A stretch of DNA of 59,084 nt from Gemmatimonadota bacterium (GCA_022560615.1 JADFSR010000027.1:1-59084), one strand, 5' to 3'; positions 18,880-57,327 are shown, numbered from the stretch's first letter. The notes: a model not told the origin generated them from the letters alone. Translations and numbers: made by a program.

Positions 18880-19203
18880 TAGCAGCCCGTGGTAGAAGTA
18901 CAGCGGGCCGCGTTACGGTGGCACGGCCGCAGGTCCTAGGCGGTGCGACGACGCCATAGCCGTCGCTACGGCTAGGCGCGCCAACGACGGAGATGGGGCC
19001 GTGCCACCGTAACCCACGCACTGTTCAGTGATGCCACACATGGTGTCGGGCGCAGGGGGGTCGCGGCCCTGGAGGTCGTTTCTCCTCCTCGGACCACCGC
19101 CTTCGGCGGCGGTGCCCGAACAACTACGACTCGTCGTCGTGCCTATTCCAGGTCTCGCGAGACCCCTGCGCGCGGCCCACTGTACTTCTACCACGGGCTG
19201 CTA
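18880..19203. mobile_element. TA-flanked palindromic MITE-like element, copy 2 (324 bp)
   Basis: Arms at 18879-18903 and 19180-19204 are perfect reverse complements over 25 nt and both end in CTAG. The right TA is part of the TAG stop of the minus-strand TonB-plug gene. Between TA and the shared AGAAGTACAG, five of the first twelve positions differ from copy 1, and every change is matched on the other arm. Inner blocks of 22 and 28 nt are identical to copy 1. A second inverted pair, ACGGTGGCACGGCC near 18915 and GGCCGTGCCACCGT near 18997, makes an inner stem. No coding capacity. Confidence 0.85.
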
Positions 19204-20043
19204 GTTCCTACGCCCACTTCGCGCGGGACCGCGGCGCGTCCAGATGAGGATCGCGCCGCACGCGGCGTCCCCTCCGCCAAAGATGGCCGGCACCGACGTG
19301 CCCGAGTACACCTCTACCACGTCCATGTCCGACGCCAGAAACTCGGTCAAATCCGTGGGCTGATCGCCCAACGAAGCCCTGCGGCTGAAGCGGCGGCCAT
19401 CTACGAAGATCGCCGGGTAGCAGCTCTCGATGGCGAGGACCCCCGGAGCCGGGGAAGTGATGTGGAGCGCACGCCGTAGGATCACCGTCCGGTTCGACAT
19501 CGTGCCACCGCTGCCTTGGACGCGAACCCCGGGCATCCCCTGAATGAGGGTGATGAGGTTGCCGCCCCGCTCCTCCAGCTCTTTGCGAAGTATGAATCGA
19601 CCGAAGCCACGCTCCAGACGGATATCGAGATCACGGAGCTCGTTGAAGGTACGCCGCGGGATCACATGCACCGTCAAGCCCTCGAGCTCGACGGGCTCCG
19701 CGCCGAGAAGAACCTCCGTCTCATAACTCCGGTCTTCGGTAAGCCAAACCTGGACGCGTCGCTCTTCGTACCCGAGGGCCTCGATCACGAGGAAGTGTAC
19801 GCCGAGCGGCACGTCGGTGAACGTGAAGAAGCCCAACTCGTTCGTGCTCCTCACCGTGCTCATCGACTCCAGCGTGACGGATGCACCGCTGACTGGCCGG
19901 CTGGTCTGGAGGTCTCGTACGTAACCGAGAAGGTTGGCCGCGCGCTCCTCCGCGTGCGCCGATTCGGCGGCGAGCAGCACAAGAAACGCCGTCACGATCC
20001 CGTTTAGAAGAGCTCGGTCTGCGGGTGTGTGTCGGCTTCTCAT
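19201..20043 (-). CDS. Barrel-less TonB plug protein with CarboxypepD_reg domain
   Basis: 280 residues from the ATG at 20043, which has AAGGAGG 4 nt upstream; the open frame beyond that is a shadow of the receptor gene. A signal peptide (about 1-30, ending ESAHA) is followed by a carboxypeptidase-regulatory-like beta-sandwich (YVRDLQTSRPVSGASVTLES; FTFTDVPLGVHFLVIEALGY). A TonB plug-type domain then comes with GVRVQGSGG, AIFVDGRRF, MDVVEVYSG and a short basic end. A full receptor would continue for some 600 more residues as a beta barrel, which is absent. It lies 41 bp after the complete receptor gene in the same direction and may partner it. Its TAG stop is the edge of element copy 2. Confidence 0.82.
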   Translation of the reverse strand: MRSRHTPADRALLNGIVTAFLVLLAAESAHAEERAANLLGYVRDLQTSRPVSGASVTLESMSTVRSTNELGFFTFTDVPLGVHFLVIEALGYEERRVQVWLTEDRSYETEVLLGAEPVELEGLTVHVIPRRTFNELRDLDIRLERGFGRFILRKELEERGGNLITLIQGMPGVRVQGSGGTMSNRTVILRRALHITSPAPGVLAIESCYPAIFVDGRRFSRRASLGDQPTDLTEFLASDMDVVEVYSGTSVPAIFGGGDAACGAILIWTRRGPARSGRRN

Positions 20044-20084
20044 GCGTCCTCCTTGCCCAGGACTTCGACCTCGTCCCGCGAATC

Positions 20085-23000
20085 CTACCGCCGGCTGCCT
20101 CCCAGGGTAACGCGGATGCCGAGCTGCGCCTGCCACTGTGAATCGGGAGTGAGCACCGACCAGGGATCCGGAGGTACTAGTCTCCCATCCTCGTCGCGCG
20201 CGGGCAAGGCCCCGCCCGCCCACCGTGACGACAGCTCTCCCACGCCGCCGAAGCTCTGCTCCCGGCCTTCGGGCTCGAGCAAAGGGACGTTGCTGCGAAT
20301 GGACTGGATGCTGCCCCAGTCGGAGTTGATGAAGTTCAGCAGATTGATCATGTCGGCCTCGAAGCGGACCGTCGCGCTCCCCGCCTGGATCGAGTGCGTC
20401 ACTCGCAGGTCGAGGCGGTGTTCCCACGGTGCCCGGCAGTCGTTTCGCCGAAGGATCTCTCCTTTGTGGGCGCTCAGGCACGGGTCACGCACCAACGCGG
20501 TGGAGAGTAGCGCGAGGGTAGCGAATCCGGAGGGCAGCTCGGAAGCGACGTTGGGCACGTAGATCAGGTCGTTGAAGCGGTCGAACGCGGGGCCGAGCGC
20601 CGGATACCCGTCGCCGTTGAGGTCCCCGCGATACACGTAGGAGAACGGTAGGCCAGATTGTCCCGTGTAGAGCAGGGAGAATTCGGTGTCCGTCAGGCTG
20701 GGGAACGGCCGCCCGTAGACCGATACTACGAACTTGTGTGGACGGTCGAAGTTCGACGCGGTCAGCAGCGGGGAGTTCGGGTTTCCCTCGGTCGCGTTGA
20801 ACCCGAAGTTGGAGATCATGTCGACCGACGTCAGGCTCTGCTTGTCGAAAGAGCGCGCGTACGCGTATCCGCCCTGGAACGCCAGCTCTTCCGTGATGAA
20901 GCCGCGGGCCTCCGCGCTCAACGAGTACGTCCAGTCGTTGCCTTTGTTCGTGACCAGAAGGACCTGGTCGTACTCCGGATGTTTGCGGTTCGGTGTGAAC
21001 CCGTCGGGAGAGGGATCGCCGAAGTGGGCGCGCTCGGTGCCCCCGTATCCCTCCAACGGCCCAAGAGGACCGCTGGGACCGTCGAGGTTCATCTCCTCGA
21101 TAGACACCTGTTTTCGCGCCATGCTGAACAGGAACCCGAGGGATCCGCTCAGGCGATCGGTCAATTCGTGATCGACGATCGACGAGAACTTGATGTAGCG
21201 CGGATATTTGAAGTCGGGGTCGAAGACGGTAACCGGGCGAACCGTGATCGGGGGCCCGTTGACGCACCCGTCCGGGGTGTTGGCCGCGTCGAATCCCGGA
21301 GCGGTATTTCCGGTCAATGGGTCGTCCGTCCAGCGGCCCGTGCAGACCTCGGTGATGGAGCGGAGGCCGTTGTTGTGGAAGGCGTTGGAGAGCCACACGT
21401 ACGGCAGTTGCCCGGTAAAGAATCCGGCGCCGCCGCGAACCTGAGTGGTGCGCCGGCCCTCGCTTTGCCAATTGAAGCCCCAGCGCGGCGAGATCAGGAT
21501 CTGCCCCGACGGCGGCGTCGACGTGTCGAAGCCGAACAGCTCGTCGAACTCGCTGTTGTACGCGGGCTTGTCGAGCAAGTAGGGAATGTCGACGCGCATG
21601 CCGAAACGCATCGTCAGCCCTTTGCCGGCGTCGATCTCGTTCTGCACGTATCCGCCGACTTCCAGCACCGAGAAATTGATTGCCGGATCCTGACCCGGCT
21701 GCAGTACGGTCCGTTGGTACCGCTGCGGCGCGTTGTTCGCCACGTCGCGTATGCTCGCGAAGAAGTAGTCTCCGAGCGCGCCCGGCAGGTACTCGTGTCG
21801 GATGCTGTTCAGCGCGCCGGTGATGCCGAAGGTGTACGTACTCCCCCGTTCGGTCGGAAGCGTGAACGTGTCGGTGAGGCGGAAGCTGGTTTGCTCGAGA
21901 TCGTTCGCCTGCGCGAAGAAGTGCGCGCCGGCCCGCACGGCACGGGTGAACGCGAGGCCGTCACCGACCGGACTGTTGAGATCCACTTCGACCTGGGGGA
22001 AGGAGCTCATCGGCGTTGTTTGATCAGTGGTCCGCTGGACCGACAGCTCGAGCTCGTTCCCCCCTCCATTTCCCATCTCTGAGAAGAGCTGGAACGAGGC
22101 GGTGTTCGTCGCCGATTCCCGGAGGATCGCGTTCGATGACAGTTCGTACGGCTCGAACGCCGTGCGGTTCGGCGTCTCGTCGTTCTGCGCCCAGGCGAAT
22201 ACGTTGCGCGCGGTCAACCGGTGGCCGCCGCCCAGAGAGGCGTCGACACGTGCGAAGATATTCGCGAGCTCCTGGTTGAGCGTGTACGGGCCGCCGAGTC
22301 CCGTGTCTACGCCGAACGAACCCTCGAACAAGTCTTGGAAAGCGCCCATCGATTCCGGCGAGATCTGGATGACCGCCGGATCGTCGCGCACGAGGTTGAA
22401 GCCCGTGGGGGGTTTGCCCCGCTCCTCGAACTCGGTCGAGATGTAGAAGTGTACCCGGTCCCGAACGATCGGTCCGCCCGCGCTGAACCCGAACAGTGAC
22501 CGGTCCACGCCCGACGCCTCCACGAGGCCGGTCGGGAGGCTGAGGTCACCCATGAGCGCCTCGTTACGGCCGACCGCGAAGCCTCGGAAGTGCCAATCGT
22601 TGGTGCCTACCTTGGTGATGGCGTTCATCACCCCGCCGGCGAAGCCCGAGAGGCGGACGTCGAAGGGCGCGACCATGATCTGGAACTGGGCCACGGCATC
22701 GATGGGCAGCATCTTGGCGCCGGCTTGGCCACCAGGGACGCCACTCGCGGTAAGCCCGAACGGGTCCTTGTGGGTCACCCCGTCGATGAGCACCTGGTTG
22801 TAGCGGTCGTTCTGGCCCGCGATCGAGAAGCCACCGTTCGCCGTGGTCGTCACGAGCGGTGACAGGTTGGCTAGCTCCATGACGTCGCGCGAGAGGATCG
22901 GCACCGACTCGACGACGCGCTCGTTCAGCAGGGTGGCGGGCCCGACCTGGCCGGGGTTGAAGATCTCGGCTCGCTCGACGTTCACCGCGATGCCCGCGAC

Positions 23001-23363
23001 CTCGATCGCCTGTTCGCTCAGGTACAACACCAGCGTCTGTGTCTCGCCGACCTGCAGCTGGATGCCCTCGAGCTTCAGGTCGGCGTATCCGAGGTGTGAG
23101 GCGGAGAGCTCGTACGGTCCGCCGGGCTGCAGGAGCAGGACCAAGAATCGACCGGCCGTGTTCGTGATCGCCAACTTCTCGACGCCCGTTCGAACATGCC
23201 GAACGGTTATGGTCACTTCGGTGAGTGGCGTGTCGTCCACCTGGAGGACGATGCCTCGAATCGCGGATGTCGTCTGGGACTGCGCGGCGAGCCCCTCGCC
23301 CACTGCCGACGCGAGGACGAGGCACACCGTCAGACCAGCCAAAGGGTAGGAGACGCGTTTCAT
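20085..23363 (-). CDS. TonB-dependent outer-membrane receptor
   Basis: 1,092 residues from the ATG at 23363 (signal MKRVSYPLAGLTVCLVLASA ... AAQ). A CarboxypepD_reg domain at about 35-115 begins IRGIVLQVDDTPL, a plug domain at about 125-260 contains QNDRYNQVLIDGVTH, and the remainder is a long beta barrel ending in alternating residues with LGIRVTLGG. Such receptors import large or scarce ligands using TonB energy; the ligand cannot be read from sequence. It is divergent from the giant VCBS lipoprotein gene, with only 114 bp between starts, so the two are probably co-regulated. Confidence 0.9.
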   Translation of the reverse strand: MKRVSYPLAGLTVCLVLASAVGEGLAAQSQTTSAIRGIVLQVDDTPLTEVTITVRHVRTGVEKLAITNTAGRFLVLLLQPGGPYELSASHLGYADLKLEGIQLQVGETQTLVLYLSEQAIEVAGIAVNVERAEIFNPGQVGPATLLNERVVESVPILSRDVMELANLSPLVTTTANGGFSIAGQNDRYNQVLIDGVTHKDPFGLTASGVPGGQAGAKMLPIDAVAQFQIMVAPFDVRLSGFAGGVMNAITKVGTNDWHFRGFAVGRNEALMGDLSLPTGLVEASGVDRSLFGFSAGGPIVRDRVHFYISTEFEERGKPPTGFNLVRDDPAVIQISPESMGAFQDLFEGSFGVDTGLGGPYTLNQELANIFARVDASLGGGHRLTARNVFAWAQNDETPNRTAFEPYELSSNAILRESATNTASFQLFSEMGNGGGNELELSVQRTTDQTTPMSSFPQVEVDLNSPVGDGLAFTRAVRAGAHFFAQANDLEQTSFRLTDTFTLPTERGSTYTFGITGALNSIRHEYLPGALGDYFFASIRDVANNAPQRYQRTVLQPGQDPAINFSVLEVGGYVQNEIDAGKGLTMRFGMRVDIPYLLDKPAYNSEFDELFGFDTSTPPSGQILISPRWGFNWQSEGRRTTQVRGGAGFFTGQLPYVWLSNAFHNNGLRSITEVCTGRWTDDPLTGNTAPGFDAANTPDGCVNGPPITVRPVTVFDPDFKYPRYIKFSSIVDHELTDRLSGSLGFLFSMARKQVSIEEMNLDGPSGPLGPLEGYGGTERAHFGDPSPDGFTPNRKHPEYDQVLLVTNKGNDWTYSLSAEARGFITEELAFQGGYAYARSFDKQSLTSVDMISNFGFNATEGNPNSPLLTASNFDRPHKFVVSVYGRPFPSLTDTEFSLLYTGQSGLPFSYVYRGDLNGDGYPALGPAFDRFNDLIYVPNVASELPSGFATLALLSTALVRDPCLSAHKGEILRRNDCRAPWEHRLDLRVTHSIQAGSATVRFEADMINLLNFINSDWGSIQSIRSNVPLLEPEGREQSFGGVGELSSRWAGGALPARDEDGRLVPPDPWSVLTPDSQWQAQLGIRVTLGGSRR

Positions 23364-23477
23364 GGGAACGCTTTCGGTTCGGGCGGGTGGATTAGGACGA
23401 CACGAGCACGCGCCGTACGACCCGTCGCCCGCGAATACCCTCAAGTTCCTTTACGCCGAAAGACAATCGAGGATGAC

Positions 23478-26400
23478 ATGACGTTGAGGGCGCTGCGTGC
23501 GACCTTGCTGCTGATCCTCGCTGTCGGAGGTTGCGCACCCGAGGTCCCACGCGAATGGAGGGAGGCGGACGGGTATCGATGGCGGGAGCTCACGGTGCCG
23601 AGACGGGGAGGGCCCGGCTTCACCGCGATGCCAGGTCGACGGACCGGTGTGGCCTTCGAGAATCGGCTGTCGGCGGCCGCCGCGATGGAGCACGATCACC
23701 TGCTCGTGGGGTCGGGTGTCGCGATCGGCGACTACGACGGTGATGGACGGCCCGACCTCTATTTTGCACGCCTCGAGGGCGTCAACGCGCTGTACCGAAA
23801 CCTGGGTGGTTGGCGCTTCGAGGACGTGACCGAGGCGGCCGGTGTGGGAGCGCCGGGCCGCTACTCGACGGGGGCCTCGTTCGCGGACGTCGACGGTGAC
23901 GGTCATCTGGACCTGTTCGTCACTGCGCTCGGAGGTCCTAACGCTCTCTTCCGGAACCGTGGGGACGGCTCGTTCGAGGACGTCACCGATGCCGCTGGGC
24001 TCACTTCGGCCTTCGGCAGCACGACTGCGACCTTCGCGGACGTCGACGGGGACGGTGACCTCGACCTCTATGTGGCGAACTACAAGGTCGAGAGTGCCGC
24101 CGACGTCCTGCGGCCGTACGAGCGGGCGTCGGTCGATCTGGTCGTCGAGCAGGATGGTGAGCGCCGGATCACCGAGGAATTCCAGCAACACTTCCGACTC
24201 GAGACACGCGACGGTGTCGAGATCGCGGTGGAGCAGGCGGACCCGGATCGCCTCTACTTGAACGACGGTACTGGTCGCTTCGAGCCCGTGTCATGGACCG
24301 GGGGACGCTTCCTCGATGCCGATGGTGCTCGGCTGACGCGCGACGTCGACGACTTCGGCCTCGCGGCGCGCTTCTACGACGTGGATGGCGACGGCGACGT
24401 GGATCTGTACGTGTGCAACGACTTCGACGATCCGGACTACCTCTGGCTCAACGACGGTTCGGGCACGTTTCGGCTCGTCGATCCGTTCGCGTTGCGCACT
24501 CAGAGCCACGCGTCGATGTCCGTCGACTTCTCGGACGTGAACCGGGACGGGCACGTCGACTTCTTCGTTGCTGATATGCTGAGCTCAGACCCGGCGCGGA
24601 GATTGGCGCAGGTCCCTCTGCACGCCGCGCTCCAAAAGCCTCCAGGAAGAATCGCCGATCGCCCCCAAGCGGGCCGTAACACGCTCTTTCTCGGACGCGG
24701 CGACGGCACGTGGGCCCAGATTGCCGAGATGGCCGGCGTTGATGGCTCGGAGTGGACGTGGGGGAGCCTCTTTCTCGACGTGGACCTGGACGGATTCGAG
24801 GACCTGTTGGTGGCGAACGGGCACGGCCGGGACATGAGGGACGGAGACGCGCTCCAGCGCGTCACCCGACTACGTGGCTCGGTTACGTGGAACGAGGCGA
24901 AGTCGCTCTATCCGAACCTGCCGACGCGGAACCGAGCGTTCCGCAATCAGGGCGACCTGACGTTCGAGGAGGTCGGCGAAGCGTGGGGCTTCTCGCAGGG
25001 AAGCGATGTTTCGCACGGGATCGCGACCGGGGACCTCGACGGAGACGGAGACCTCGACGTCGTGCTCAATCGCCTCAACATGCCCCCGTTGCTCCTGAGG
25101 AACGACGCTGTGGGGGCCCGCGTGGCGGTGCGCCTCGTCGGGGACGCCCCCAATACGCAGGCGGTCGGCGCCCTGGTGCGGCTCCTCGGTGGGGGCGGCG
25201 CTGGTTCCCCGGTACCGTCCCAGGACAAGCAGATCACGGCGGGCGGACTCTACCTCTCGGGTTCGGAGACCCTCGTGACCCTCGCCGCGGGCGCTGCAGC
25301 GGCCGCGGGTGGCGCAGGCGAAAGTATGATGCTCGAGGTCATGTGGCCCGCGGGCGGCATGACCAGGATCTCGGTGAGCGCGAACCGGATGTACGAGATC
25401 CGCGAAGCCGGCGCAGGGCCCGCGCCGGAGGTAGCGGTGCAACGTCCTGAGAGCCGGATCTTCGAGGACGTTTCGGCCCTGATCGCGCACCGGCACGTAG
25501 AAGGGCCGTTCGTGGACTTCGAGCGGCAGCCGCTGCTGCCGTACGAATTGTCCCGGCTGGGGCCTGGCGTGACCTGGGCCGACGTGGACCGGGACGGAGA
25601 CCCCGACTTGATCATCGCGGCCGGGCAGGGGAGCCGGATTACGGTCCTGCGCAACGACGATGGGAAATTCACGACGGTGTTGGGGGGGACGACCGCCCAC
25701 GACCAGACGACGCTCCTACCCTCTTGGCAGGGCGGTACGGTGTCACTGCTGGTGGGCCGGACGAGCTTCGACGCCGCCTCGCCGGAAGAGGCGCGGAGCC
25801 TCAGCGGGGTAGCGCGGATCGGCTGGCGCGGCGGGTCGCCGCCGGAGGCGGTCGCCGAGCCGCACCTCAGCTCGGTGGGTCCACTCGCCCAGGCCGATGT
25901 GGACGGGGACGGGGACCTCGACCTCTTCGTCGGAGGGCGTACGGTCCCGGCGTTCTACCCGCTGCCTGCCACGTCCCGCCTGCTGATCAACGAAGGTGGT
26001 ACGTATCGCGATGCCGCGCAGGCGGTCTTCAAGGATCTCGGACTCGTTTCCGGCGCCGTGTTCACGGACATCGACGACGACGGTGACCCCGACCTCGCGC
26101 TTGCGGTCGAATGGGGCCCCATTCGTCTCTTCGAGAATCAGGGCGGCACCTTCACGGAGGTTACGGAGCGATGGGGCTTGGCCTCGCTGACCGGCCTCTG
26201 GCGGGGTATCACCGCCGGAGACCTCGACGGCGACGGCCGCATGGATCTGGTGGCGACCAACGAGGGACTCAACTCGCGACTCGTGACGTCACCGGGACGG
26301 CCCCTCACCGTGGTGCACGGAGACGTCGACCGGAGCGGTACGTGGGAGGTCTTCTTGGCGCGCGCCCGCGATGACGGAGGCCCGCTGTTTCCACTGGCGA

Positions 26401-27176
26401 GGTATGAACAGACGCGCGCCGCGGTCCCGTCGCTGCGCTCGCGGGTCAGCAGCTTCGGGAGCTACGCAGAGTCGACGCTGTCCGAGGTGATCGGGGCCGA
26501 TCCCGGGAGCTTCTTCGTACTGCGAGCGGAGACGCTCGAGCACACCGTTCTCCTGAATCGGGGCGGGAGCTTCGAGATATCCCCACTGCCGGTCGAAGCG
26601 CAGCTGGCGCCCGCCCACCACGTTGGGATTGCCGATGTCGATGGCGATGGCAACGAGGATGTCGTCATCACGCAGAACTTCTTCCCGACGGAGGGTTTCA
26701 CGCCCCGGTACGACGCGGGTCGCGCTTTGCTGCTTCTCGGTGACGGTACCGGCAGCCTGCGCGCGCTCGGAGCGGACCGCTCGGGCCTGATCGTTTACGG
26801 CGACCAACGCGGTGCGGCGTTCGCCGACTTCGACGGAGACGCGCGGATCGATCTGGCCGTGGCGCAGAACGGCACGGAGACCAAGCTCTTCCACAACGTC
26901 GGAGCACGACCTGGCCTGCGCGTAGTGCTCGAAGGGCCGTTCGAGAACCCGACCGCGATCGGTGCGCGTCTCCGGATCGTGTACGACGGTTCTTATGGTC
27001 CGGCGCGGGAGATCCGCTCCGGTTCCGGCTACTGGTCGAGTGACGACGCCGTGCAAGTTCTCGGTATTTCGGGAGCGGCGACCGCGGTGCAGGTCCGATG
27101 GCCCGACGGAAGGGTGACGGAGACGGCGTTGGCGGTCGGTTCTACGGAGCTCGTGATCCGCGAACCGCCGTCTTGA
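23478..27176 (+). CDS. Giant FG-GAP/VCBS + double ASPIC/UnbV lipoprotein
   Basis: 1,232 residues from ATG 23478 (GAGGATGAC just before it). The signal MTLRALRATLLLILAVGGC gives a lipid-anchored Cys19. About ten D-x-D-x-DG-x-x-D calcium-loop repeats of the integrin-like beta-propeller type are spread in two halves. Each half ends in an ASPIC/UnbV domain (about 545-650 and 1145-1230; the second has GSGYWSSDDAVQVLG). It is the intact form of the truncated gene at 1108-4404. First gene of a six-gene plus-strand operon and divergent from the TonB receptor. Family function is unproven; binding of proteins or polysaccharides at the cell surface is the usual inference. Confidence 0.9.
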   Translation: MTLRALRATLLLILAVGGCAPEVPREWREADGYRWRELTVPRRGGPGFTAMPGRRTGVAFENRLSAAAAMEHDHLLVGSGVAIGDYDGDGRPDLYFARLEGVNALYRNLGGWRFEDVTEAAGVGAPGRYSTGASFADVDGDGHLDLFVTALGGPNALFRNRGDGSFEDVTDAAGLTSAFGSTTATFADVDGDGDLDLYVANYKVESAADVLRPYERASVDLVVEQDGERRITEEFQQHFRLETRDGVEIAVEQADPDRLYLNDGTGRFEPVSWTGGRFLDADGARLTRDVDDFGLAARFYDVDGDGDVDLYVCNDFDDPDYLWLNDGSGTFRLVDPFALRTQSHASMSVDFSDVNRDGHVDFFVADMLSSDPARRLAQVPLHAALQKPPGRIADRPQAGRNTLFLGRGDGTWAQIAEMAGVDGSEWTWGSLFLDVDLDGFEDLLVANGHGRDMRDGDALQRVTRLRGSVTWNEAKSLYPNLPTRNRAFRNQGDLTFEEVGEAWGFSQGSDVSHGIATGDLDGDGDLDVVLNRLNMPPLLLRNDAVGARVAVRLVGDAPNTQAVGALVRLLGGGGAGSPVPSQDKQITAGGLYLSGSETLVTLAAGAAAAAGGAGESMMLEVMWPAGGMTRISVSANRMYEIREAGAGPAPEVAVQRPESRIFEDVSALIAHRHVEGPFVDFERQPLLPYELSRLGPGVTWADVDRDGDPDLIIAAGQGSRITVLRNDDGKFTTVLGGTTAHDQTTLLPSWQGGTVSLLVGRTSFDAASPEEARSLSGVARIGWRGGSPPEAVAEPHLSSVGPLAQADVDGDGDLDLFVGGRTVPAFYPLPATSRLLINEGGTYRDAAQAVFKDLGLVSGAVFTDIDDDGDPDLALAVEWGPIRLFENQGGTFTEVTERWGLASLTGLWRGITAGDLDGDGRMDLVATNEGLNSRLVTSPGRPLTVVHGDVDRSGTWEVFLARARDDGGPLFPLARYEQTRAAVPSLRSRVSSFGSYAESTLSEVIGADPGSFFVLRAETLEHTVLLNRGGSFEISPLPVEAQLAPAHHVGIADVDGDGNEDVVITQNFFPTEGFTPRYDAGRALLLLGDGTGSLRALGADRSGLIVYGDQRGAAFADFDGDARIDLAVAQNGTETKLFHNVGARPGLRVVLEGPFENPTAIGARLRIVYDGSYGPAREIRSGSGYWSSDDAVQVLGISGAATAVQVRWPDGRVTETALAVGSTELVIREPPS

Positions 27177-27274
27177 TCGCGTAGAACCGCCCGGACATGT
27201 TGATCACCCTTTTAAGGCGCGTCGCGGGACCCCCCGGTGGCGTGCCGAGCACCACGATTCAGGAGCAGCGCGGG

Positions 27275-34154: not shown

Positions 34155-37100
34155 CCTCTCGACGTACTCCGCGGCGTAGCCCTCTCACGACGACGCTCTT
34201 GTCACTGCTTTTCTCGGCGTGCGCCGATGCACCGCCTCCCGCCGATCCCGCCGAACTGCTCACGGTGCGAACCGTTGGCTTGGCGTACCTGGAGGAACAC
34301 CGCCTGGAAGAGGCCGAGGCGGAGTTCCTGCGACTCGTGGAGATGGCGCCGGAGGAGCCGCTCGGGTACGCCAACCTCGGACTAACGTATTTGAGACAGG
34401 GGCGCCTCACGGAAGCGGAGGCCGAGGTCCGGCGGGCGATCGAACTGCTGCCATCGGATTCCGACGTGCGATTGATCCTTGTCGAGATTCTCCGGGCGCA
34501 AGAGCGCGACGTGGAAGCGCGGTCCGAGCTCGAGGCGTCTCTGGTCACGGACTCCAGCCACGTGAAGACACTCTACGTCCTGGCGACGCTCGACGCGGAC
34601 TCGACGGGCCCCGGCCCCGCCGGCCGCCGCGCCGCTCAGCTCGAACGCGTGGTAGCACTGCAACCCGGTAACGTGGCCGCGCGCGTGGAGCTGGTCGATG
34701 CACACCTCGTATCGGGCGGGGCAGAGAGTGCGGCCATCCACTTGGAGCAGCTCCGTCAGCTCGTGCCCGAGATCCCGGTCGAGGGGCGGGACCTCTTCGA
34801 CGAAGCGACGCTCGCGGCGCAGCGCGGCGACGCGGCGGGCGCGCGGAATGCGGCGCTCGCCTTCCACAACGTGATGCGTACGACGCCGATCTATCAGCAG
34901 GGTTTGCTCGCGCTACGCGGGCCGGGCGGCGTCCTGCTCGGGTTCCCCGTGGTCACGTTCAGTGAGACGCTCGGTGCTGGGGTACGGGACCCGGAGACCG
35001 TGCTTGCCGCGCTCCGCTTCACCGACGTGACGGAGACGGTGGGCTTGCCCAGAGGAGGGACGGGCGGCGGCGCGTTGGCGGTGGCGGACTACGACGGTGA
35101 CAACGACCGGGACATCTTCTCCGGCGGCGTCTTGTGGCGGAACGATCCCACGGGCTTCGTCGACGTCTCCGCGGAGGCGGGCGTGACCGGGCCCGCGCCG
35201 GACCATGCGCTCTTCGGCGACTACGACAACGACGGCGCGCTCGACCTGTTTCTGTCGCGAGGCGAGGTGGGCGTCCTGTATCGGAACATCGGCGACGGCA
35301 CGTTCGAAGATGTCTCGGCGGAGCTCGAGGTGTCGCTAGCGGGCGGGGCGCCGCTCTTCATCGACTTCGATCAGGACGGGGATCTCGACTTGCTCGTTGC
35401 CGGCAGCGAAGGGACCGGCATGTACCGCAACAACCTCGACGGCACCTTCACCGACGTAAGCGCCCGGGCCGGGACCGCGGCCGCGGTCGGGGGCGCCGAA
35501 GCTGCGGCTGCGTTCGGGGACTTCGACGACGACGACGACCTGGACCTGATCATCTCGGGTGCGTCCTCGACCCGCTTCTACGACAACCAGAGGTCGGGGG
35601 TCTTCGTGGACGTGACTGAGGAGCGCGGTATCACGCCGGGTGGTGCCGGCGTGGTGAGCGTCGGCGACTACAACAACGACGGTTTCCTCGATCTGCTCAC
35701 GGCGGTGCGCGGTGGTCGGGGGCTCACGCTGCAGCTCAACGACGGACACGGTGCGTTCCAGGTAGACGAGCGCCCGGCCGCGCTGCTCGAAGGTGCGGCT
35801 ACGCTCATCGTCCACGACGCGGCGTTCGTGGACTTCGACAACGACGGTTGGCTCGACGTCGTGCTGGTGGGTGAGTCCGGGGACGGAGGAGCAGGGATAG
35901 TACGGCTCTTCCGCAGCTCTGGGCCCGGTCGGTTCGACGACGTCTCCGACATCGTGCAGGCCGAGCTGCCTCCGCTCCGCCGGCTCGCGTTCGCCGACTT
36001 CGGAGACGACGGGGATCTCGACCTGTTCGTATCGGCTGTCGATGGATCCGCCCACCTCATTCGCAACGACGGCGGCGATGGGAACCGGTATCTGAAGATG
36101 CGGCTCGTCGGCCTGTCGACCGGGAGCGGCAAGAACAACTACTTCGGGATCGGCGCGAAGGTGGAGGTGCGCGCGGGCGGGCTGTACCAGACGCTGGTCG
36201 TGACCGGGCCCGAGATCCACATCGGTCTGGGCCAGCACGCCCGAGCCGACGTGGTGCGTGTCCGCTGGACCAACGGGGTCCCGCAGAACCTCTTCTATCC
36301 GAACGCGAACCAGTCGGTCGTGGAGGAGCAGATCCTCAAGGGCTCGTGTCCCTTCCTGTACACCTGGAACGGTGAGCGCTTCGAGTTCGTGACCGACCTC
36401 ATGTGGAAGAGCGCGCTCGGCATGCCCATGGGTCTCATGGCGCAGGGCGAAACGGCCTACGCGCCGCCGATGGCGTCTCAGGGCTTCGTAAGGATTCCCG
36501 GGCACGCTCTGCGGCCGCAGGACGGCGTGTACGAGCTCCGGATAACAGGTGAGCTGTGGGAGGTCTTCTACATTGACGAGGTCGAGCTCGTGGTCGTGGA
36601 CCACCCGGATTCGGTAGACGTCTTTGTGGACGAGCGCTTCGTCTTTCCAGAGCCGAATCTGCCGCTAGTGCTGCACCAGGTAGCGGAGCAACGAGCGCCC
36701 CTTTCGGCGGTCGACGGGCGTGGGATCGACGTGTTGCCCCGGCTGCTGCATGCGGACGACTGGTACGTGGACGAACTGATGCCGGATCGGTACCAGGGCC
36801 TGAGCGCGCTGCACGATCTCGTGCTCGACCTCGGAGCCTTCCCTCAGAACGCGTCGGTCGAACTGTACATGCGCGGTTGGATCTTCCCGACGGATGCGAG
36901 CATCAACGTCGCGCTGACGCAGTCCGAGACGCTTGAAACGATCATGCCGTACCTCGAGGTCGTCGGCGCTTCCGGTGCATGGGTGACCGCGGTCGAGGCG
37001 TTGAGCTTTCCGGCCGGCAAGAACAAGCTCGTCATCCAAGATTTGACTGGCGCCTTCCCGACGGAAGACCATCGCGTGCGCATCCGAACGAACATGAACA

Positions 37101-37648
37101 TCTACTGGGACCACGCGTTCTTCACCGTCGGTGAGACTGTGGCTCCCGTCAAGCGCACGACCCTGCAGCCCTTCGCCGCGGACTTCCACTTCCGCGGCTT
37201 TTCCAAGCTGTACCGGAAGGGTGGGCGCTTCGGCCCGCACTGGTTCGACTACGAGAGCCTTTCCACCGAGTCGCCGTGGCGGCCGATCATGGGCAGGTAC
37301 ACCCGGTACGGCGACGTGCTCGAGCTCGTCCGTGAGTCGGACGATATCTATCCGATCATGGGTCCGGGCGACGAGATCACGTTCCGGTTCGACGCCGCGG
37401 AAGCTCCTCCGCTCCCGGAGGGATGGACTCGGGATTTCATGATCTACACGGACGGATGGGTGAAGGACGCCGATCTGAATACTGCGGAGGGATGGAGGGT
37501 CGAGCCGCTCCCGTTCCACGCGATGTCCGAGTATCCGTACGGTCCGAACGAGGCATACCCGCGTCCCGACATCGTGCAGCGGTATCATACGCGAGCGCCG
37601 ACTCCCGCGGCGGTCTTGGGTGGTGGGGCGGCGCCGGACGTGAGATGA
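34151..37648 (+). CDS. TPR-VCBS lipoprotein with a large unrecognised C-terminal domain
   Basis: 1,165 residues from ATG 34151 (ATGA overlap with the previous stop). Lipobox LLFSAC (Cys24). Residues about 30-250 are TPR helices (LEEAEAEFLRLVEMAPEE; LTEAEAEVRRAIELLPSD). Residues 295-690 are FG-GAP repeats and an ASPIC-like segment with GIGAKVEVRAGG. From about residue 730 (KGSCPFLYTWNGERFEFV) to the end lies a 430-residue region rich in aromatic and Asp residues (YIDEVELVVVDHPDSVDVFV; LYMRGWIFPTDASINVA; MNIYWDHAFFTVG). I do not assign it to a family. It resembles a carbohydrate-binding or beta-sandwich module by composition only. Confidence 0.85.
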   Translation: MTSRRTPRRSPLTTTLLSLLFSACADAPPPADPAELLTVRTVGLAYLEEHRLEEAEAEFLRLVEMAPEEPLGYANLGLTYLRQGRLTEAEAEVRRAIELLPSDSDVRLILVEILRAQERDVEARSELEASLVTDSSHVKTLYVLATLDADSTGPGPAGRRAAQLERVVALQPGNVAARVELVDAHLVSGGAESAAIHLEQLRQLVPEIPVEGRDLFDEATLAAQRGDAAGARNAALAFHNVMRTTPIYQQGLLALRGPGGVLLGFPVVTFSETLGAGVRDPETVLAALRFTDVTETVGLPRGGTGGGALAVADYDGDNDRDIFSGGVLWRNDPTGFVDVSAEAGVTGPAPDHALFGDYDNDGALDLFLSRGEVGVLYRNIGDGTFEDVSAELEVSLAGGAPLFIDFDQDGDLDLLVAGSEGTGMYRNNLDGTFTDVSARAGTAAAVGGAEAAAAFGDFDDDDDLDLIISGASSTRFYDNQRSGVFVDVTEERGITPGGAGVVSVGDYNNDGFLDLLTAVRGGRGLTLQLNDGHGAFQVDERPAALLEGAATLIVHDAAFVDFDNDGWLDVVLVGESGDGGAGIVRLFRSSGPGRFDDVSDIVQAELPPLRRLAFADFGDDGDLDLFVSAVDGSAHLIRNDGGDGNRYLKMRLVGLSTGSGKNNYFGIGAKVEVRAGGLYQTLVVTGPEIHIGLGQHARADVVRVRWTNGVPQNLFYPNANQSVVEEQILKGSCPFLYTWNGERFEFVTDLMWKSALGMPMGLMAQGETAYAPPMASQGFVRIPGHALRPQDGVYELRITGELWEVFYIDEVELVVVDHPDSVDVFVDERFVFPEPNLPLVLHQVAEQRAPLSAVDGRGIDVLPRLLHADDWYVDELMPDRYQGLSALHDLVLDLGAFPQNASVELYMRGWIFPTDASINVALTQSETLETIMPYLEVVGASGAWVTAVEALSFPAGKNKLVIQDLTGAFPTEDHRVRIRTNMNIYWDHAFFTVGETVAPVKRTTLQPFAADFHFRGFSKLYRKGGRFGPHWFDYESLSTESPWRPIMGRYTRYGDVLELVRESDDIYPIMGPGDEITFRFDAAEAPPLPEGWTRDFMIYTDGWVKDADLNTAEGWRVEPLPFHAMSEYPYGPNEAYPRPDIVQRYHTRAPTPAAVLGGGAAPDVR

Positions 37649-39819
37649 CCGCCGCTTCGGCGGAGTCGCGCCCGCTCTTCCTTCTGGTGGCCTCACTCGG
37701 CGGTCTCGCCGGGTGCGGCTCGGACGAGGGCCCCACGTGGTCGGGCGGCGTAGGCGCGATCTTCCATGAGGAGTGTTCCTCGTGCCACCGGCCCGAAGGT
37801 CCAGCTCCGTTCTCACTTCTGGAGTATCAGGGCGCAGCCGAGCGTGTAGACCGTATCACGACGGCCGTTTCCGAGGGAAGGATGCCCCCGTGGCTACCGT
37901 CTCCGGACGGTCCGGGCATGGCCGGGGAACGTCTGCTCGATCCCGCGCAGATCGAGATGATTCTGGCGTGGGCGTATGCCGGAGCGCCGGAGGGCGACGC
38001 GTCCAGTGCTCCGACGCCCCCGGAATGGTCCGACGGGTGGTCGTTGGGTGAGCCGGACCTGGTGGTGCAGACGGAGGACGGCTTCCCGGTCCCGGCGGAG
38101 GGCGACGAGATGTTCCGGAACATGGTGCTCTCTCCGCCGCTCGATCGTCCTCGGTGGGTGCGCGCCGTCGAGCTGCGTCCTGGGCATCAGAAGGTTGTGC
38201 ACCACGCGACGGTGCGCGTCGACCCGACGTCGTCATCGCGCTTGGCGGATGCCGGGGATTCGCTGCCGGGCTTCGACGACATGTTCTCGCGGAGCGAGGC
38301 GAGCACGCCGGGTGGATTCTTCCTAGGGTGGACTCCGGGGCGCATCGCCGCCCCGTACCCGCAGGGTATGGCTTGGCGGCTCGCGCCCGGTGTCGACTTT
38401 GTGGTCCAGCTCCATCTGCGTCCGACCGGCGAGCCTGTGGAGGCGACAGTCGCGCTCGGGCTCTACTTCACGGACGAGCCGCCGGCACAGATTCCGCTCA
38501 TCATACGACTCGGTGGCCAGACCATGGAGATCCCGCCGGGGGTCTCCGACTACGAAGTCGTCGACGAATTCCGACTCCCGGTCGCGGTGACCGCGCTCGG
38601 CGTCTACCCGCACGCTCACTACCTGGGCAAGAGCATGAACGCCTGGGCGGAGACGCCCGCGGGCGACTCGATTCCTCTGCTCGACATCCCCCGCTGGGAC
38701 TTCAACTGGCAGGACGCGTACGAGTACGCTGATGGGATTCCCATTCCGGCCGGCAGCACGCTTCGTATCAGCTTCGTGTACGACAACTCGGCGGAGAACC
38801 CGCTGAACCCATTCGATCCGCCGCGCTGGACCAGCTATGGGCCCGCGTCCGCGGACGAAATGGCCGAGCTCTGGTTGCAGGTCCTGCCCGAGTCCACGAG
38901 GGATGGCGCCGCGCTCACGGAGGCGGTGGCAGTGAAAACCCTCGCGGATCGGCTCATGGGATGGCGGCACTTGCTCGTGATGGACCCGGACGACCCGGAG
39001 GTCAACTTTTCGCTCGGTAGCCACGCGCAGGCCAGGGGGCGACACGACGAGGCACTGGAGGCGTACCGACGGGCGCTTGCGGCGAGACCAGACTATGCTC
39101 AGGTGCATCACAATCTGGGTCTCATCCAGGAGGAACGAGGCGACACCGCAGCCGCCGGACGCTCCTACGAGCGTGCGGTCGAGGCACTGCCGGCGTACCC
39201 GGCAGCGTGGAACAGCCTCGGTCGGCTCCGCGCGCTGCGTGGGGACCTCGAGGAAGCACTCATCGCATTCGATCGAGCGGTGCGCATAGACTCGAGCTTC
39301 GTGGAAGCGCAGAACAATCTCGGCAGCGTGTTGCGCGATCTCGGGCGCCACGAGGAGGCGGAGGGGCGGTACCGTACGGCGGTCGCGCTCGATGCGGACT
39401 TCGCGCCGGCCCGCTTCAATCACGCGTTGGCCTTGGTGACATTGGGGCAAGGTGAGGAGGCGCTGCTCGAGCTGAACCGGGGTCTCGCGCTCGATCCGAG
39501 CAACGTACAAGGGTCCCTGGCGGTCGCGTGGGCGTTGGCGACCGAACCGGACGACTCGGCCCGAAGGCCCGATCTCGCAGCGGACCTCGCCGCGCAGATC
39601 CGTGACATCGTCGGACCGCACCCGTCGGTGCTCGACGTGCAGGCGGCGGTCTTCGCGCACGGTGGGCGCTTTCTCGACGCCGTTCGATTGATCGAACTGG
39701 CGGTCTCGGAGGCGGAGCGCCGAGGGGAGACGTCGCTGATCCCCGATCTGTCCGCGCGGCTTGAGCTGTACCGGTCGGGCCGGCCCTACGTTCGCGGCCG
39801 CGAGGACGGCAAGCCCTAG
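37645..39819 (+). CDS. Haem c + copper type II monooxygenase (PHM-like) + TPR lipoprotein
   Basis: 724 residues from ATG 37645 (ATGA overlap upstream). Lipobox GLAGC gives Cys24. A single haem motif CSSCH (44-48) is followed by a helical region with the methionine-rich RMPPW. Residues about 130-430 match the two-domain copper type II ascorbate-dependent monooxygenase fold. All six copper ligands of peptidylglycine monooxygenase have counterparts: CuA His186, His187 (VVHHA) and His257 (QLHLRP); CuB His323, His325 (YPHAHYLGK) and Met406 (ADEMAELW). The last 270 residues are at least six TPRs. It should be an exported mono-oxygenase receiving electrons through its own haem; the substrate is unknown. 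Its stop overlaps the convergent gene's stop within CTAG. Confidence 0.88.
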   Translation: MTAASAESRPLFLLVASLGGLAGCGSDEGPTWSGGVGAIFHEECSSCHRPEGPAPFSLLEYQGAAERVDRITTAVSEGRMPPWLPSPDGPGMAGERLLDPAQIEMILAWAYAGAPEGDASSAPTPPEWSDGWSLGEPDLVVQTEDGFPVPAEGDEMFRNMVLSPPLDRPRWVRAVELRPGHQKVVHHATVRVDPTSSSRLADAGDSLPGFDDMFSRSEASTPGGFFLGWTPGRIAAPYPQGMAWRLAPGVDFVVQLHLRPTGEPVEATVALGLYFTDEPPAQIPLIIRLGGQTMEIPPGVSDYEVVDEFRLPVAVTALGVYPHAHYLGKSMNAWAETPAGDSIPLLDIPRWDFNWQDAYEYADGIPIPAGSTLRISFVYDNSAENPLNPFDPPRWTSYGPASADEMAELWLQVLPESTRDGAALTEAVAVKTLADRLMGWRHLLVMDPDDPEVNFSLGSHAQARGRHDEALEAYRRALAARPDYAQVHHNLGLIQEERGDTAAAGRSYERAVEALPAYPAAWNSLGRLRALRGDLEEALIAFDRAVRIDSSFVEAQNNLGSVLRDLGRHEEAEGRYRTAVALDADFAPARFNHALALVTLGQGEEALLELNRGLALDPSNVQGSLAVAWALATEPDDSARRPDLAADLAAQIRDIVGPHPSVLDVQAAVFAHGGRFLDAVRLIELAVSEAERRGETSLIPDLSARLELYRSGRPYVRGREDGKP

Positions 39820-42800
39820 CGGCTCCCACGGGTGACCGTGACGTCAAGTTGGTCGGGGCCGAGGTCGACCCGCTGCACCACCCCGTCAGGCCACCTCACT
39901 TCGATACCTTGTGGCTCCGCTCGCAGCCCGAGCACCGCCACCGGATCGTCGACGGACCAATAGCCCGAGCCGAGCCTCAACTCCCGGGCGGGGCCCATTC
40001 CGTCCTCGTACACCACGCGCACGGTCGCCCCGATGCCGTGCGGATTGGCCGCCGTACCCAGCAGCCTGACCCGGACTCCGCGTTTGGCTAGCCGGTTATG
40101 AAGCAGCACGGTCGGCCCGTTGTTTTGCCCGATCACGAGATCGATGCGCCCGTCGCGGTCGTAGTCCGCGACCGCGGCTCCCCTTTGATCCCCCCGGATG
40201 CTCAGACCCGACCGCGAGGCGGCCTGGGGCGCGAGATCGCCCGACCCGTCACCGAGCAGCAGAAGACCCCGCCCGGCGTCGAAGCGTTCGGCCCCGAGCG
40301 GGTTGGGAAAGAAGTTCTGCGTGAGCAGGAGATCCTCGTGCCCATCCCCGTCGAAGTCGGCGACTGAGGCGTGGAACGCGGGCGCGCGTTGGGCGGCGGC
40401 GGGCAGGACGCGCGGCTCGAAGTGGTCACCACGGTTCAGGAAGACCATGTGGTCGAGCGTGGTGATCTGCGACACTTGTGCGCCAGCCACCGTGGGCCCG
40501 AGCACCTCGGCGATGGAGGCGTCGGCGTACGCGCCGTAGGTGGTGGTCGTCTGGAGACGGACGTACGGCAGTCCACGTGACAGGCGCCGGAGGCCGGTGA
40601 GCGGCGCCACGTTCCCGATCCGGTCGTCACGCGCGGCCAGAAGGAAGTCGAGCGTGCCGTTCCGGTCGAAGTCACCCCAGTAGCCGAGCAACGGGCGGTC
40701 CGCACTGGCGTAGAGACCGATGTTGCGGCCCCACGATGTTAGCACCAGGTCCATGCGGCCGTCGCCGTCGAGGTCTCCGGCGGTGACGCCGTTCCACCAG
40801 CTCAGATACGGGGAGAGGCCCCACGACCGCGTACTCTCCAGGAAGCGGCCACCTTCGTTGATGAAGAGGCGAGGAGGACCCCAGTCCGTGGCGATCACCA
40901 GATCCGGGTCCGCGTCACCGTCCACGTCCGTGAACGTCGCCCCGGAAACGAGGCCGATGCTCTCGAAGGGAGCCGACGCCACGGAGTCGTAGACCAGGCT
41001 GCCATCCTGGGCGCGCAGGAAGAGCCGAGACGTCGGTGGCAGCGGGTACGCAGCGGCATACACGCGGCCGCCCATAAAGACGTCGAGGTCGCCGTCTCCG
41101 TCCACGTCTGCCGATGCGAGCGCGCCGGTAGACGAGCCGTCCGAAGAGAGCGCGGGCACGGGAGTGCCCGCGCCGCTGGGCCCGAGCCAGATCGAAACCG
41201 CCGCCGGGACTTCGACCGCGGCGTTCGGTGACGGGGCCTCGTAGTTGGCAATACCGGCCAACAGGGAACGGCCATCCGGCTCGGGAAGCAGGGTCGTGAC
41301 GTCGTAATCGTACGCGGCTCCCGTACCCGCGCGTACAAGAGTCCCGTCCCGGTTCTCGAAGTAGGCGACCGCGCCGCCCGCACCCGCGCCGACCACCAGA
41401 TCCGCGTCGCCGTCGCCGTCGCTGTCCATCCAGGTGATCCCAGGGCCGAGCCGGCTCAGGTCACGGGGGAGCAGGGGCTGAGCGGCGGACGCGTCGAAGG
41501 GCCGATCGACGTGCGTGTGCGCGAGGACCTCACGAAGGTCTTCGAAGAGCGGGCCCTCGCCGGTGCCGATCGACCGCGTGACCGCGGCACCTGAAGCGTC
41601 GTTCGGTACCTCGGTGATCTCGTACAGCCGGTTCGGTTCGGCCGCCACCACGGTCCGACGACCCGACGGCCAGGTGACCTCGATCGTGAGCGAAGAGGCA
41701 GAGCCCGTGGCGAAGCTCTGCAGTCCGTCCGAGTGCGATAGGTACAGCCCGCCGGCGCCTACCTCCCGTAGTTGATCAACGGGGCCGCCGGAAACCATGA
41801 TCTTCGCGCCGACCGCCCCCGTGTTGGGTGCCGCGCCCACGAGCCTCACGGCGAGTCTGGCTGCCTCGGAGTCATTGCGCAGCACGAGCGCAGGATCACC
41901 CAGACGGTTGATCACGACGTCGAGGTCCCCGTCCCCGTCGAGGTCCGCTGTCGCGAGGCCGTGCGAGATGTCTGCGCCTACGTCCAAGCCCCAAGCGCCT
42001 TCCACGGGCTCGAACGTTCCGTCCCCGAGGTTTCGGAACGCCCGGTTGGGTAGTCTGAGCGGAGGGAAGAGGTTGATCACCTCGGGCCACTCGGCGCCGG
42101 CGACCGCCTGGCCCCGCCGCAGACGGTCTCCCGTGTCGCCGTCGAGTGCATCCCATAGATGGCCCGTCGTGATCAGCAAGTCCTGATGACCATCGAGGTC
42201 CACATCCACGAACTCGGTGCCCCAGGACCACCCGGAGGCGTGCAGACCGGCCTGCTGCGCCGTCTCCACCCAGACGCCGTCGTCGCTCCCGAGCAGGAGC
42301 GTGTTCCGGTTCACTTGCATGGTGGAATCGACCGTGCCTGGCGGGGGCCGGCGTTCCGTCAGCGTAGAGACCTGGGTCTTTCGGAGCCGGGTGGAGTACG
42401 GGAGCATGTCCGCTACGAAGATGTCGGTGATGCCGTCGGCGTCGACGTCCGCGAACGCCACCGACATCGAGGCGTGGCTCGTCTTACGCAGCTCCCTCGC
42501 ACCGGTCAGCCGGAAGGTTCCGTCCCCCTCATTGATCCACAGCTGGTCCGGGCTCTCGAAGTCGTTCGCGACGTAGAGGTCGGGTGCACCGTCGCCATTG
42601 AGGTCGTGGAAGCGTGCGGCGAGGCCCCACTCCTGAGGCTCGATCTCGAGAGGCTTGCCGCGATGGTCGAGGAAGCGGGGCCCGGAGACCGACTCTCGCG
42701 TGAAGACCCCGATGCCGTTGTTCAGGTAGAGGTCGTCGGCCTGGCCGAACTCCCAAGTCATCACGGCCTCGCGCCCCTCGACGACACGGTAGTACTCCCT

Positions 42801-43532
42801 GTACATCTCGTTCACGACCCACTCACCTTCGCGTTGCTCGAGTACAGGGGTCTCCCGCCGGTCTGCGGGTGAGAAGACGTCCGCCGCCCGATCGAGGCGG
42901 TAGTTGGCGGCGTACAGGTCGAGATCTCCGTCCCCGTCGATGTCTGCCAAGGTCATCGTGCTGCCGGCGCGCGGAGTCACGAAGCCCGACTCCAGCGAGC
43001 GATCGGTGAAGACCCCTTGGCCATCGTTCTCGAGCAGCGTGATGGGAGCACCCATCGAGGAGAAGAGCAGGTCCAGGTCGCCGTCCCCGTCCGTGTCGAC
43101 CAGGGCGGCGCCCGTTGGTCGGCGGTCCCCGAAGCTCACCCCCGCCGCATCGCTCACGTCCTCGAAGCGCATGCCGCCCCGATTCAAGAAGAGGCCGTTC
43201 TCGCCACGCGTGTTGACGAGGAAAATGTCGACTCGGCCGTCGCCGTCGACATCGCCCAGCGCGACCCCTCCGCCGTTCGCGAGATGCTGGTTGAGCGTGG
43301 TCATCTCGGTGCTCGGATCGTTGGTGAAATCGACTCCGGTACGTTGCGCATCGAGTGCCGTGAATCCGGCAGCGCCCCCTCCACGCACGTTCAGCTCATG
43401 CCAGCGAACGGGCGACTCCCCGATCCACTCTGGCGCGGAGTCGCGACAGCTCGTTAGGAGCAGGGCAGCCGCACACGGGGCGAGCGACTTCCATGGGGAA
43501 ATGAAGCGCGTCAGTGCTCTCTGGGTCGTCAC
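39816..43532 (-). CDS. Giant FG-GAP/VCBS + double ASPIC/UnbV lipoprotein, second intact paralogue
   Basis: 1,238 residues from a GTG at 43532; the open frame extends 50 codons further but only this start places a signal (AAALLLTSC, Cys29) at the N terminus. It matches the 1,232-residue product of 23478-27176 from end to end: RWHELNVRGGGAAGFTALDA, two blocks of calcium loops, and two ASPIC/UnbV domains, the last with GSGYWSVDDPVAVLG. It runs opposite to the operon and overlaps its last stop codon by 3 nt, so neither transcript has room for a terminator between them. Ribosome site weak (CCAGAAA). Confidence 0.88.
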   Translation of the reverse strand: MTTQRALTRFISPWKSLAPCAAALLLTSCRDSAPEWIGESPVRWHELNVRGGGAAGFTALDAQRTGVDFTNDPSTEMTTLNQHLANGGGVALGDVDGDGRVDIFLVNTRGENGLFLNRGGMRFEDVSDAAGVSFGDRRPTGAALVDTDGDGDLDLLFSSMGAPITLLENDGQGVFTDRSLESGFVTPRAGSTMTLADIDGDGDLDLYAANYRLDRAADVFSPADRRETPVLEQREGEWVVNEMYREYYRVVEGREAVMTWEFGQADDLYLNNGIGVFTRESVSGPRFLDHRGKPLEIEPQEWGLAARFHDLNGDGAPDLYVANDFESPDQLWINEGDGTFRLTGARELRKTSHASMSVAFADVDADGITDIFVADMLPYSTRLRKTQVSTLTERRPPPGTVDSTMQVNRNTLLLGSDDGVWVETAQQAGLHASGWSWGTEFVDVDLDGHQDLLITTGHLWDALDGDTGDRLRRGQAVAGAEWPEVINLFPPLRLPNRAFRNLGDGTFEPVEGAWGLDVGADISHGLATADLDGDGDLDVVINRLGDPALVLRNDSEAARLAVRLVGAAPNTGAVGAKIMVSGGPVDQLREVGAGGLYLSHSDGLQSFATGSASSLTIEVTWPSGRRTVVAAEPNRLYEITEVPNDASGAAVTRSIGTGEGPLFEDLREVLAHTHVDRPFDASAAQPLLPRDLSRLGPGITWMDSDGDGDADLVVGAGAGGAVAYFENRDGTLVRAGTGAAYDYDVTTLLPEPDGRSLLAGIANYEAPSPNAAVEVPAAVSIWLGPSGAGTPVPALSSDGSSTGALASADVDGDGDLDVFMGGRVYAAAYPLPPTSRLFLRAQDGSLVYDSVASAPFESIGLVSGATFTDVDGDADPDLVIATDWGPPRLFINEGGRFLESTRSWGLSPYLSWWNGVTAGDLDGDGRMDLVLTSWGRNIGLYASADRPLLGYWGDFDRNGTLDFLLAARDDRIGNVAPLTGLRRLSRGLPYVRLQTTTTYGAYADASIAEVLGPTVAGAQVSQITTLDHMVFLNRGDHFEPRVLPAAAQRAPAFHASVADFDGDGHEDLLLTQNFFPNPLGAERFDAGRGLLLLGDGSGDLAPQAASRSGLSIRGDQRGAAVADYDRDGRIDLVIGQNNGPTVLLHNRLAKRGVRVRLLGTAANPHGIGATVRVVYEDGMGPARELRLGSGYWSVDDPVAVLGLRAEPQGIEVRWPDGVVQRVDLGPDQLDVTVTRGSR

Positions 43533-57318: not shown

Positions 57319-57327
57319 GAGGCCGAC

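Follow-up and report, generated by a model that had tools for sequence, protein, structure and literature searches.

A putative family of membrane heptahaem cytochromes paired with exported CRTAC1/ASPIC proteins in Gemmatimonadota and other bacteria

In 2018, three families of quinol oxidases/quinone reductases were known for extracellular electron transfer—CymA, CbcL, and ImcH (PMC6295460). Proteins of the CymA/NapC/NirT type are tetrahaem with a single short transmembrane (TM) segment; CbcL carries nine c haems in its N-terminal part and six TM helices in its C-terminal part, and the CbcL/MtrH/MtoC family is defined by N-terminal c haems and a C-terminal HydC/FdnI-like part, usually with six TM helices; ImcH combines three N-terminal TM helices with one CX3CH and six CX2CH motifs and NapC-like sequence (PMC6295460). 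Bacterial CRTAC1/ASPIC-UnbV proteins (PF07593 with PF13517), defined by a C-terminal ASPIC/UnbV domain behind FG-GAP repeats, have no assigned job that we could find, though they are numerous in Gemmatimonadota, Planctomycetota, and other groups. The sole earlier link between CRTAC1 and haem proteins that we found comes from other bacteria, where hydrazine-synthase-like genes flank FG-GAP genes of the CRTAC1 family (PMC12758564).

The stretch of DNA analyzed here (the window) is the entire contig C27, 59,084 bp, within a 4.5-Mb Gemmatimonadota MAG genome. Its gene cluster comprises the following features:

19201–20049, minus strand: plug-only protein (CarboxypepD_reg, no barrel); accessory; orthologues in genomes G001, G014, and G046
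20085–23363, minus strand: TonB-receptor-type outer-membrane protein (CarboxypepD_reg plus OMP_b-brl_4 barrel); accessory
23478–27176, plus strand: VCBS1, large FG-GAP/ASPIC lipoprotein; accessory
27197–29491, plus strand: VCBS2, FG-GAP/ASPIC lipoprotein; accessory; ATGA overlap with the cytochrome start
29488–32397, plus strand: MHC, membrane multihaem (predicted heptahaem) cytochrome; core
32394–34154, plus strand: VCBS3, CRTAC1 (FG-GAP/ASPIC) lipoprotein, the cytochrome partner; core; ATGA overlap with the cytochrome
34151–37648, plus strand: TPR-VCBS lipoprotein (TPR, FG-GAP propeller, ASPIC, C-terminal domain); frequent third member; ATGA overlap with VCBS3
37645–39819, plus strand: cyt c–PHM–TPR lipoprotein (the copper protein); accessory; ATGA overlap with TPR-VCBS
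39816–43532, minus strand: VCBS4, giant double FG-GAP/ASPIC lipoprotein; accessory; convergent

The six plus-strand genes span 23478–39819. Of their five junctions, only the first, VCBS1/VCBS2, is a gap (20 bp); the other four are ATGA overlaps. This layout agrees with an earlier note on the same DNA, as do the divergent TonB/plug pair, whose TonB-type gene starts 114 bp from VCBS1, and the giant VCBS lipoprotein converging from the other side. The note's statement that the cluster encodes only exported or membrane products likewise held: on direct reading, five of the six products (VCBS1, VCBS2, VCBS3, TPR-VCBS, and the copper protein) have lipobox-like starts, and the sixth, the cytochrome, has five predicted TM helices. 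The closest named record is SZUA-1190 (cytochrome 86% identical), and the nearest named records are all Gemmatimonadota MAGs. Our reading, to which we assign a probability of about 0.6, is that the core of this locus is a functional unit in which a cytoplasmic-membrane b2c5 cytochrome and a dedicated exported CRTAC1 protein, usually together with a TPR/FG-GAP/ASPIC lipoprotein, would carry out quinone-linked electron transfer and perhaps catalysis.

From its N terminus, the cytochrome comprises five predicted TM helices (residues 19–50, 65–99, 102–127, 132–159, and 165–191 in an AF2 model), a region with five CxxCH motifs (residues 287–506; motifs at 287, 353, 384, 453, and 502), a beta domain (~558–750), and a TPR part (~765–949). 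The five haem motifs are conserved in 69 sequences, as in multihaem c-type cytochromes, with the first taking the form CX4CH in the subtype called T2 below. Thirteen histidines are invariant across the 69 aligned cytochromes: the five of the haem motifs (291, 357, 388, 457, and 506), four in the TM part (H74, H92, H141, and H155), and 303, 438, 527, and 602, the last lying in the beta domain. The TM histidines are present in 69/69 sequences and sit in predicted helices 65–99 and 132–159, where they could bind two b haems on opposite membrane sides, as in di-haem b-type TM parts. If the N terminus is inside, an orientation that agrees with arginine-rich loops 2–3 and 4–5, H74 and H141 would face the periplasm and H92 and H155 the cytoplasm, an arrangement that fits two bis-His b haems. 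We predict a b2c5 heptahaem protein, with two b haems in the TM part and five c haems. The earlier description of a membrane pentahaem cytochrome was correct in its five CxxCH motifs and too low in its haem count, since the four invariant TM histidines raise the predicted number to seven. No Pfam cytochrome b family scored above its cut-off for the TM bundle, and an attempt to identify the cytochrome by PDB sequence search returned weak matches alone (c552 and a multihaem selenoprotein, E 0.04–0.23). Because the haem domain folded poorly (pLDDT mostly <50), the AF2 model was not used for haem geometry, and the pairing of haem ligands was deduced from conservation alone.

Relatives were sought with a cytochrome profile built without the TPR part (E ≤ 1e-20) and occur in 56/395 Gemmatimonadota genomes, in 99/343 genomes of Planctomycetota (to which a Phycisphaerales MAG belongs), and in 11/321 genomes of the class that contains a Lysobacterales MAG. 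Three subtypes, all of which keep the TM part, can be told apart: T1, of ~970 aa with TPR, to which the window cytochrome belongs; T2, of ~700 aa and without TPR; and T3, the remaining sequences of Planctomycetota and the Lysobacterales-MAG class, many of them ~950 aa. The genome of the window also contains a second pair, a T2 cytochrome followed by an ASPIC gene (locus L096, C1:193–197 kb, with the cytochrome at C1:195–196 kb), whose members are 27% and 43% identical to those of the window pair.

Judged on its predicted architecture, the window cytochrome fits none of CymA, CbcL, or ImcH. It resembles CbcL/MtrH/MtoC in joining a di-haem b-type TM part and a multihaem c part in one chain, predicted in the inner membrane. 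Unlike that family, it has the reverse order—five TM helices, five c haems, beta domain, and TPR—as well as a CRTAC1 partner. Like ImcH, it places N-terminal TM helices before a multihaem c part, and the first haem motif of T2 is also atypical; unlike ImcH, it has four invariant histidines within five TM helices, and five haem motifs. With CymA/NapC/NirT (PF03264) it would share the proposed role of a quinol dehydrogenase feeding periplasmic partners, whereas its five TM helices and a PF03264 score of 20.3 bits, against a cut-off of 24.1, set it apart.

The histidine count bears on what the c haems might do. With five c haems and four further invariant histidines, one c haem is left without a universally conserved histidine ligand; this haem may be open, or its ligand may vary from one subtype to another. 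In the pentahaem nitrite reductase of the NrfA type, four bis-His haems accompany one open catalytic haem, and the number of invariant histidines here is as expected for such an arrangement. The cytochrome could then be a terminal reductase in its own right: the haem without an invariant distal histidine would be catalytic, the whole would act as a self-contained quinol-dependent reductase, like NrfH and NrfA in one chain, and CRTAC1 would serve as a scaffold or substrate-binding subunit. The weak similarity to cytochrome c554 in Pfam and to c552 and the multihaem selenoprotein in the PDB points the same way, as does the occurrence of CRTAC1-family genes among hydrazine-synthase-like genes elsewhere (PMC12758564). 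The distal ligand, however, could equally be Met, Lys, or a subtype-specific histidine (H645, H427), a catalytic motif such as CxxCK is absent from the cytochrome, and the PDB matches all lie above E 0.01. We regard a terminal reductase as possible but rather unlikely.

The case for a joint unit comes from the constancy of the neighboring gene. The partner at 32394–34154 has both domains of the CRTAC1 family above their cut-offs (FG-GAP_3 at 146 bits; UnbV_ASPIC at 46.3 bits, cut-off 23.4) and differs from other bacterial CRTAC1/ASPIC-UnbV proteins in its link to one cytochrome family. A first set of loci comes from Gemmatimonadota, together with single records from Phycisphaerales and Lysobacterales and one labelled Latescibacterota. 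In this set, a same-strand CRTAC1 gene lies downstream of the cytochrome in 60/60 testable cases (a few of which are duplicates of one genome retrieved by two tools; a 61st, L063, was excluded with only 422 bp of contig left). In T1 loci, the CRTAC1 start mostly overlaps the cytochrome stop codon by 4 bp. A second set of 35 loci covers the other two groups; L188 and L190 reach contig ends, and L198 and L199 were already counted in the first set. Of its 33 testable loci, CRTAC1 is downstream in 28 and upstream in 2 (L196 and L197); it is missing from the neighborhood despite sufficient room in L182, L189, and L191, whose genomes carry CRTAC1 genes elsewhere. As read from gene order, the conserved core is the cytochrome gene and the ASPIC gene directly after it. 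The literature searched yielded no paper that joins CRTAC1 with such a cytochrome, so the earlier label of an undescribed system stands for this pair.

Sequence divergence of the two partners is also linked. Distances among cytochromes and among their partners, over 76 pairs, correlate at 0.85, a value reached by 0/999 permutations (highest 0.12); shared ancestry of the host genomes inflates this correlation in part and does not explain the adjacency. In a CRTAC1 tree, 74/75 partners fall in one clade (support 0.85) together with 13 other CRTAC1 proteins, at least 2 of which are the upstream partners at L196 and L197. A lipobox-like motif is found in just 32/76 partner proteins, so not every partner is a lipoprotein. 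An opposing view is that there is no joint function at all and that numerous exported CRTAC1 genes merely gather near other exported genes. The genome of the window does have eleven ASPIC matches, and a number of peripheral CRTAC1 genes change position from one cluster to another; against this stand near-total same-strand adjacency in three groups, the single clade, and the co-variation. In the Lysobacterales-MAG class, moreover, all 11 cytochrome-bearing genomes hold ASPIC, compared with 57/321 genomes overall (P = 2.3e-9). By our own estimate, chance adjacency would be of the order of a few per thousand, because the complete 7.4-Mb genome G469 has 11 ASPIC matches. A mere gathering of exported genes is scarcely credible on this evidence.

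The wider cluster is less constant than the core pair. We mapped the window proteins onto the loci of relatives; the earlier note had suggested that the same gene order be sought in other genomes. The entire order from plug protein to VCBS4, copper gene included, is kept in G014 and G046, and because the same order of all genes recurs there, the clustering is far beyond chance; the core pair is conserved much farther. The same-genus genome G001 (82–86% identical) has every cluster gene except the copper gene, with the ends of TPR-VCBS and VCBS4 lying ~5 bp apart. VCBS1 orthologues are in place in G001, G014, and G046 and relocated in some others. In most other Gemmatimonadota the set is reduced to three: the cytochrome, the ASPIC protein that follows, and TPR-VCBS. 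We rejected the whole six-gene cluster as the unit, only G014 and G046 keeping all genes among the clusters compared. The copper protein, the TonB pair, and the extra CRTAC1 proteins are additions in one Gemmatimonadota group.

The third frequent member, TPR-VCBS, lies near the cytochrome in many Gemmatimonadota and also at L187, L190, L199, and L200. It ends in a domain of ~430 aa (36332–37645) that Pfam leaves unmatched even at E 5 and that is more conserved than the preceding propeller (for example, 55–61% versus ~40% at many T2 loci). An AF2 model of this domain (pLDDT 87) gave no Foldseek match below E 0.001. VIA-align reached Z 9.8 at best (phage tail chain, 3.0 Å over 122 residues; CBM35 2w47, 2.9 Å over 112 residues); these matches cover only residues ~115–270, where the model hints at a galactose-binding-type jelly roll. 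In several clusters, a Sortilin/Vps10-BNR repeat protein follows TPR-VCBS (L058 18625–21885, L061 18252–21494, and L071 13753–15873), and at L045 two GH127 genes come next. Reading a substrate from such flanking enzymes—Vps10-like BNR protein, GH127 pair, amidase, amidohydrolases, and M28 peptidase—was abandoned, their recurrence being too low.

The copper protein was central to the pathway proposed earlier, in which the cytochrome would hand electrons from quinol to a copper monooxygenase sitting at the surface on CRTAC1 scaffolds, with uptake of the product by the TonB receptor. The protein itself is a PHM/DBM-like candidate copper monooxygenase by its ligand pattern. All six expected Cu ligands (H186 and H187, H257, H323 and H325, and M406) are invariant in 11 homologues, in an order (HH, H, HxH, M) that we take to be that of peptidylglycine monooxygenase, including the assignment to two copper sites. 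Its N-terminal c haem is marked by CSSCH (C44-x2-C47-H48) with an invariant M80. In contrast to the peptidylglycine/dopamine enzymes that it resembles in these ligands, it is fused to a c haem and TPRs, and it scores 13.3 bits against PF03712, below the cut-off of 23. The Pfam Cu2_monooxygen C-terminal domain is matched weakly by 10/11 homologues, and the N-domain is unmatched; a PDB search with a PHM-like profile gave no match, and a literature search on PHM in bacteria yielded nothing. The earlier call of a haem-fused copper monooxygenase thus holds for the ligand pattern and falls short on the Pfam score.

As an electron sink for the cytochrome, the copper protein fares worse. Its gene is joined to the operon by ATGA and keeps its place in G014 and G046, and its own c haem and invariant ligands would suit the proposed route. 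Within the cluster, however, it is present only in the window, G014, and G046, missing from G001 and nearly all other clusters, and on this presence pattern we rejected it as the center of the system. In G001 it was probably lost, because the more distant G014 and G046 have it. Where TPR-carrying homologues occur elsewhere, neither a cytochrome nor an ASPIC gene lies beside them. The cyt c–PHM-like family is strongly expanded in many Gemmatimonadota, with 15–21 matches per genome in six (21 in the window's own, 19 in G001, and 20 in G073; also G032, G055, and G069). Given this large family and the homologues without such neighbors, the copper gene's place here is real, yet outside the conserved core. 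We consider the copper-monooxygenase pathway very unlikely.

Product uptake by the TonB receptor proved to be conjecture, as orthologues lie beside the cytochrome only in G001, G014, G046, and G009. The TonB-type protein matches OMP_b-brl_4 (131.9 bits) and CarboxypepD_reg in Pfam, with the Plug family unmatched; the plug-only protein reaches 23.6 bits for plug against a cut-off of 23.9. The receptor orthologue is found in G001, G046, and G009, and in G014 as a gene without its middle (L057 1975–3660), in which query residues ~463–996 are missing while both ends are kept and the rest of the cluster is intact. In other cytochrome clusters its place is empty or taken by an unrelated gene of SusC type. 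Such SusC-type receptors are divergent from the cytochrome at L058 6293–9628, L047 1638–5105, and L071 1621–4956, the last locus also having a SusD-like gene at 99–1589; their unrelatedness implies that a TonB receptor beside the cytochrome unit arose more than once. Elsewhere in the window, another double FG-GAP/ASPIC protein, unlinked to the cluster, is encoded at 1183–4404 on the plus strand (ASPIC at 2398 and 4174), and two consecutive plus-strand genes at 53929–58974 read like a SusC/SusD pair, the second being the lipoprotein 'ACGNLDVVNLNDPDRER'.

What survives of the earlier pathway is a multihaem cytochrome in the membrane, linked to ASPIC/FG-GAP proteins and potentially able to exchange electrons with quinones; the copper sink lacks support, and TonB uptake stays conjectural. 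Haem-binding motifs, invariant histidines, gene adjacency across phyla, and co-variation of the pair are documented here in sequence, and the following steps are proposed for the quinone-linked unit. The TM part would exchange electrons with the quinone pool, quinol oxidation being judged the likelier direction, and the pentahaem chain in the periplasm would receive them across the membrane through the b haems. CRTAC1 would dock on the pentahaem/beta/TPR region, holding or presenting a redox partner, and a small substrate might be reduced at the c haem left without an invariant histidine ligand. In copper-bearing clusters, the c haem of the copper protein could take electrons from the cytochrome. 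Flow might also run in reverse, from an extracytoplasmic donor captured by CRTAC1 proteins to the quinone pool. The related quinone-linked CbcL/MtoC family is thought to run either way (PMC6295460), but in the flanks inspected no donor-oxidising enzyme is found repeatedly beside the pair, and we hold reverse flow to be unlikely.

We give about even odds that these cytochromes form an unnamed further family of quinone-linked membrane cytochromes—b2c5, with three subtypes in at least three phyla—whose near-obligate partner is a specific CRTAC1 clade, and that bacterial CRTAC1/ASPIC proteins thereby take part in electron transfer outside the cytoplasm or in catalysis at haem. If so, one more architecture would join CymA, CbcL, and ImcH among the membrane cytochromes connecting quinones with the periplasm. 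The near-fixed pairing with a membrane heptahaem cytochrome gives bacterial CRTAC1/ASPIC proteins a direct, testable role, and since the cytochrome-bearing groups include organisms with complete genomes, that role may be testable in culture.
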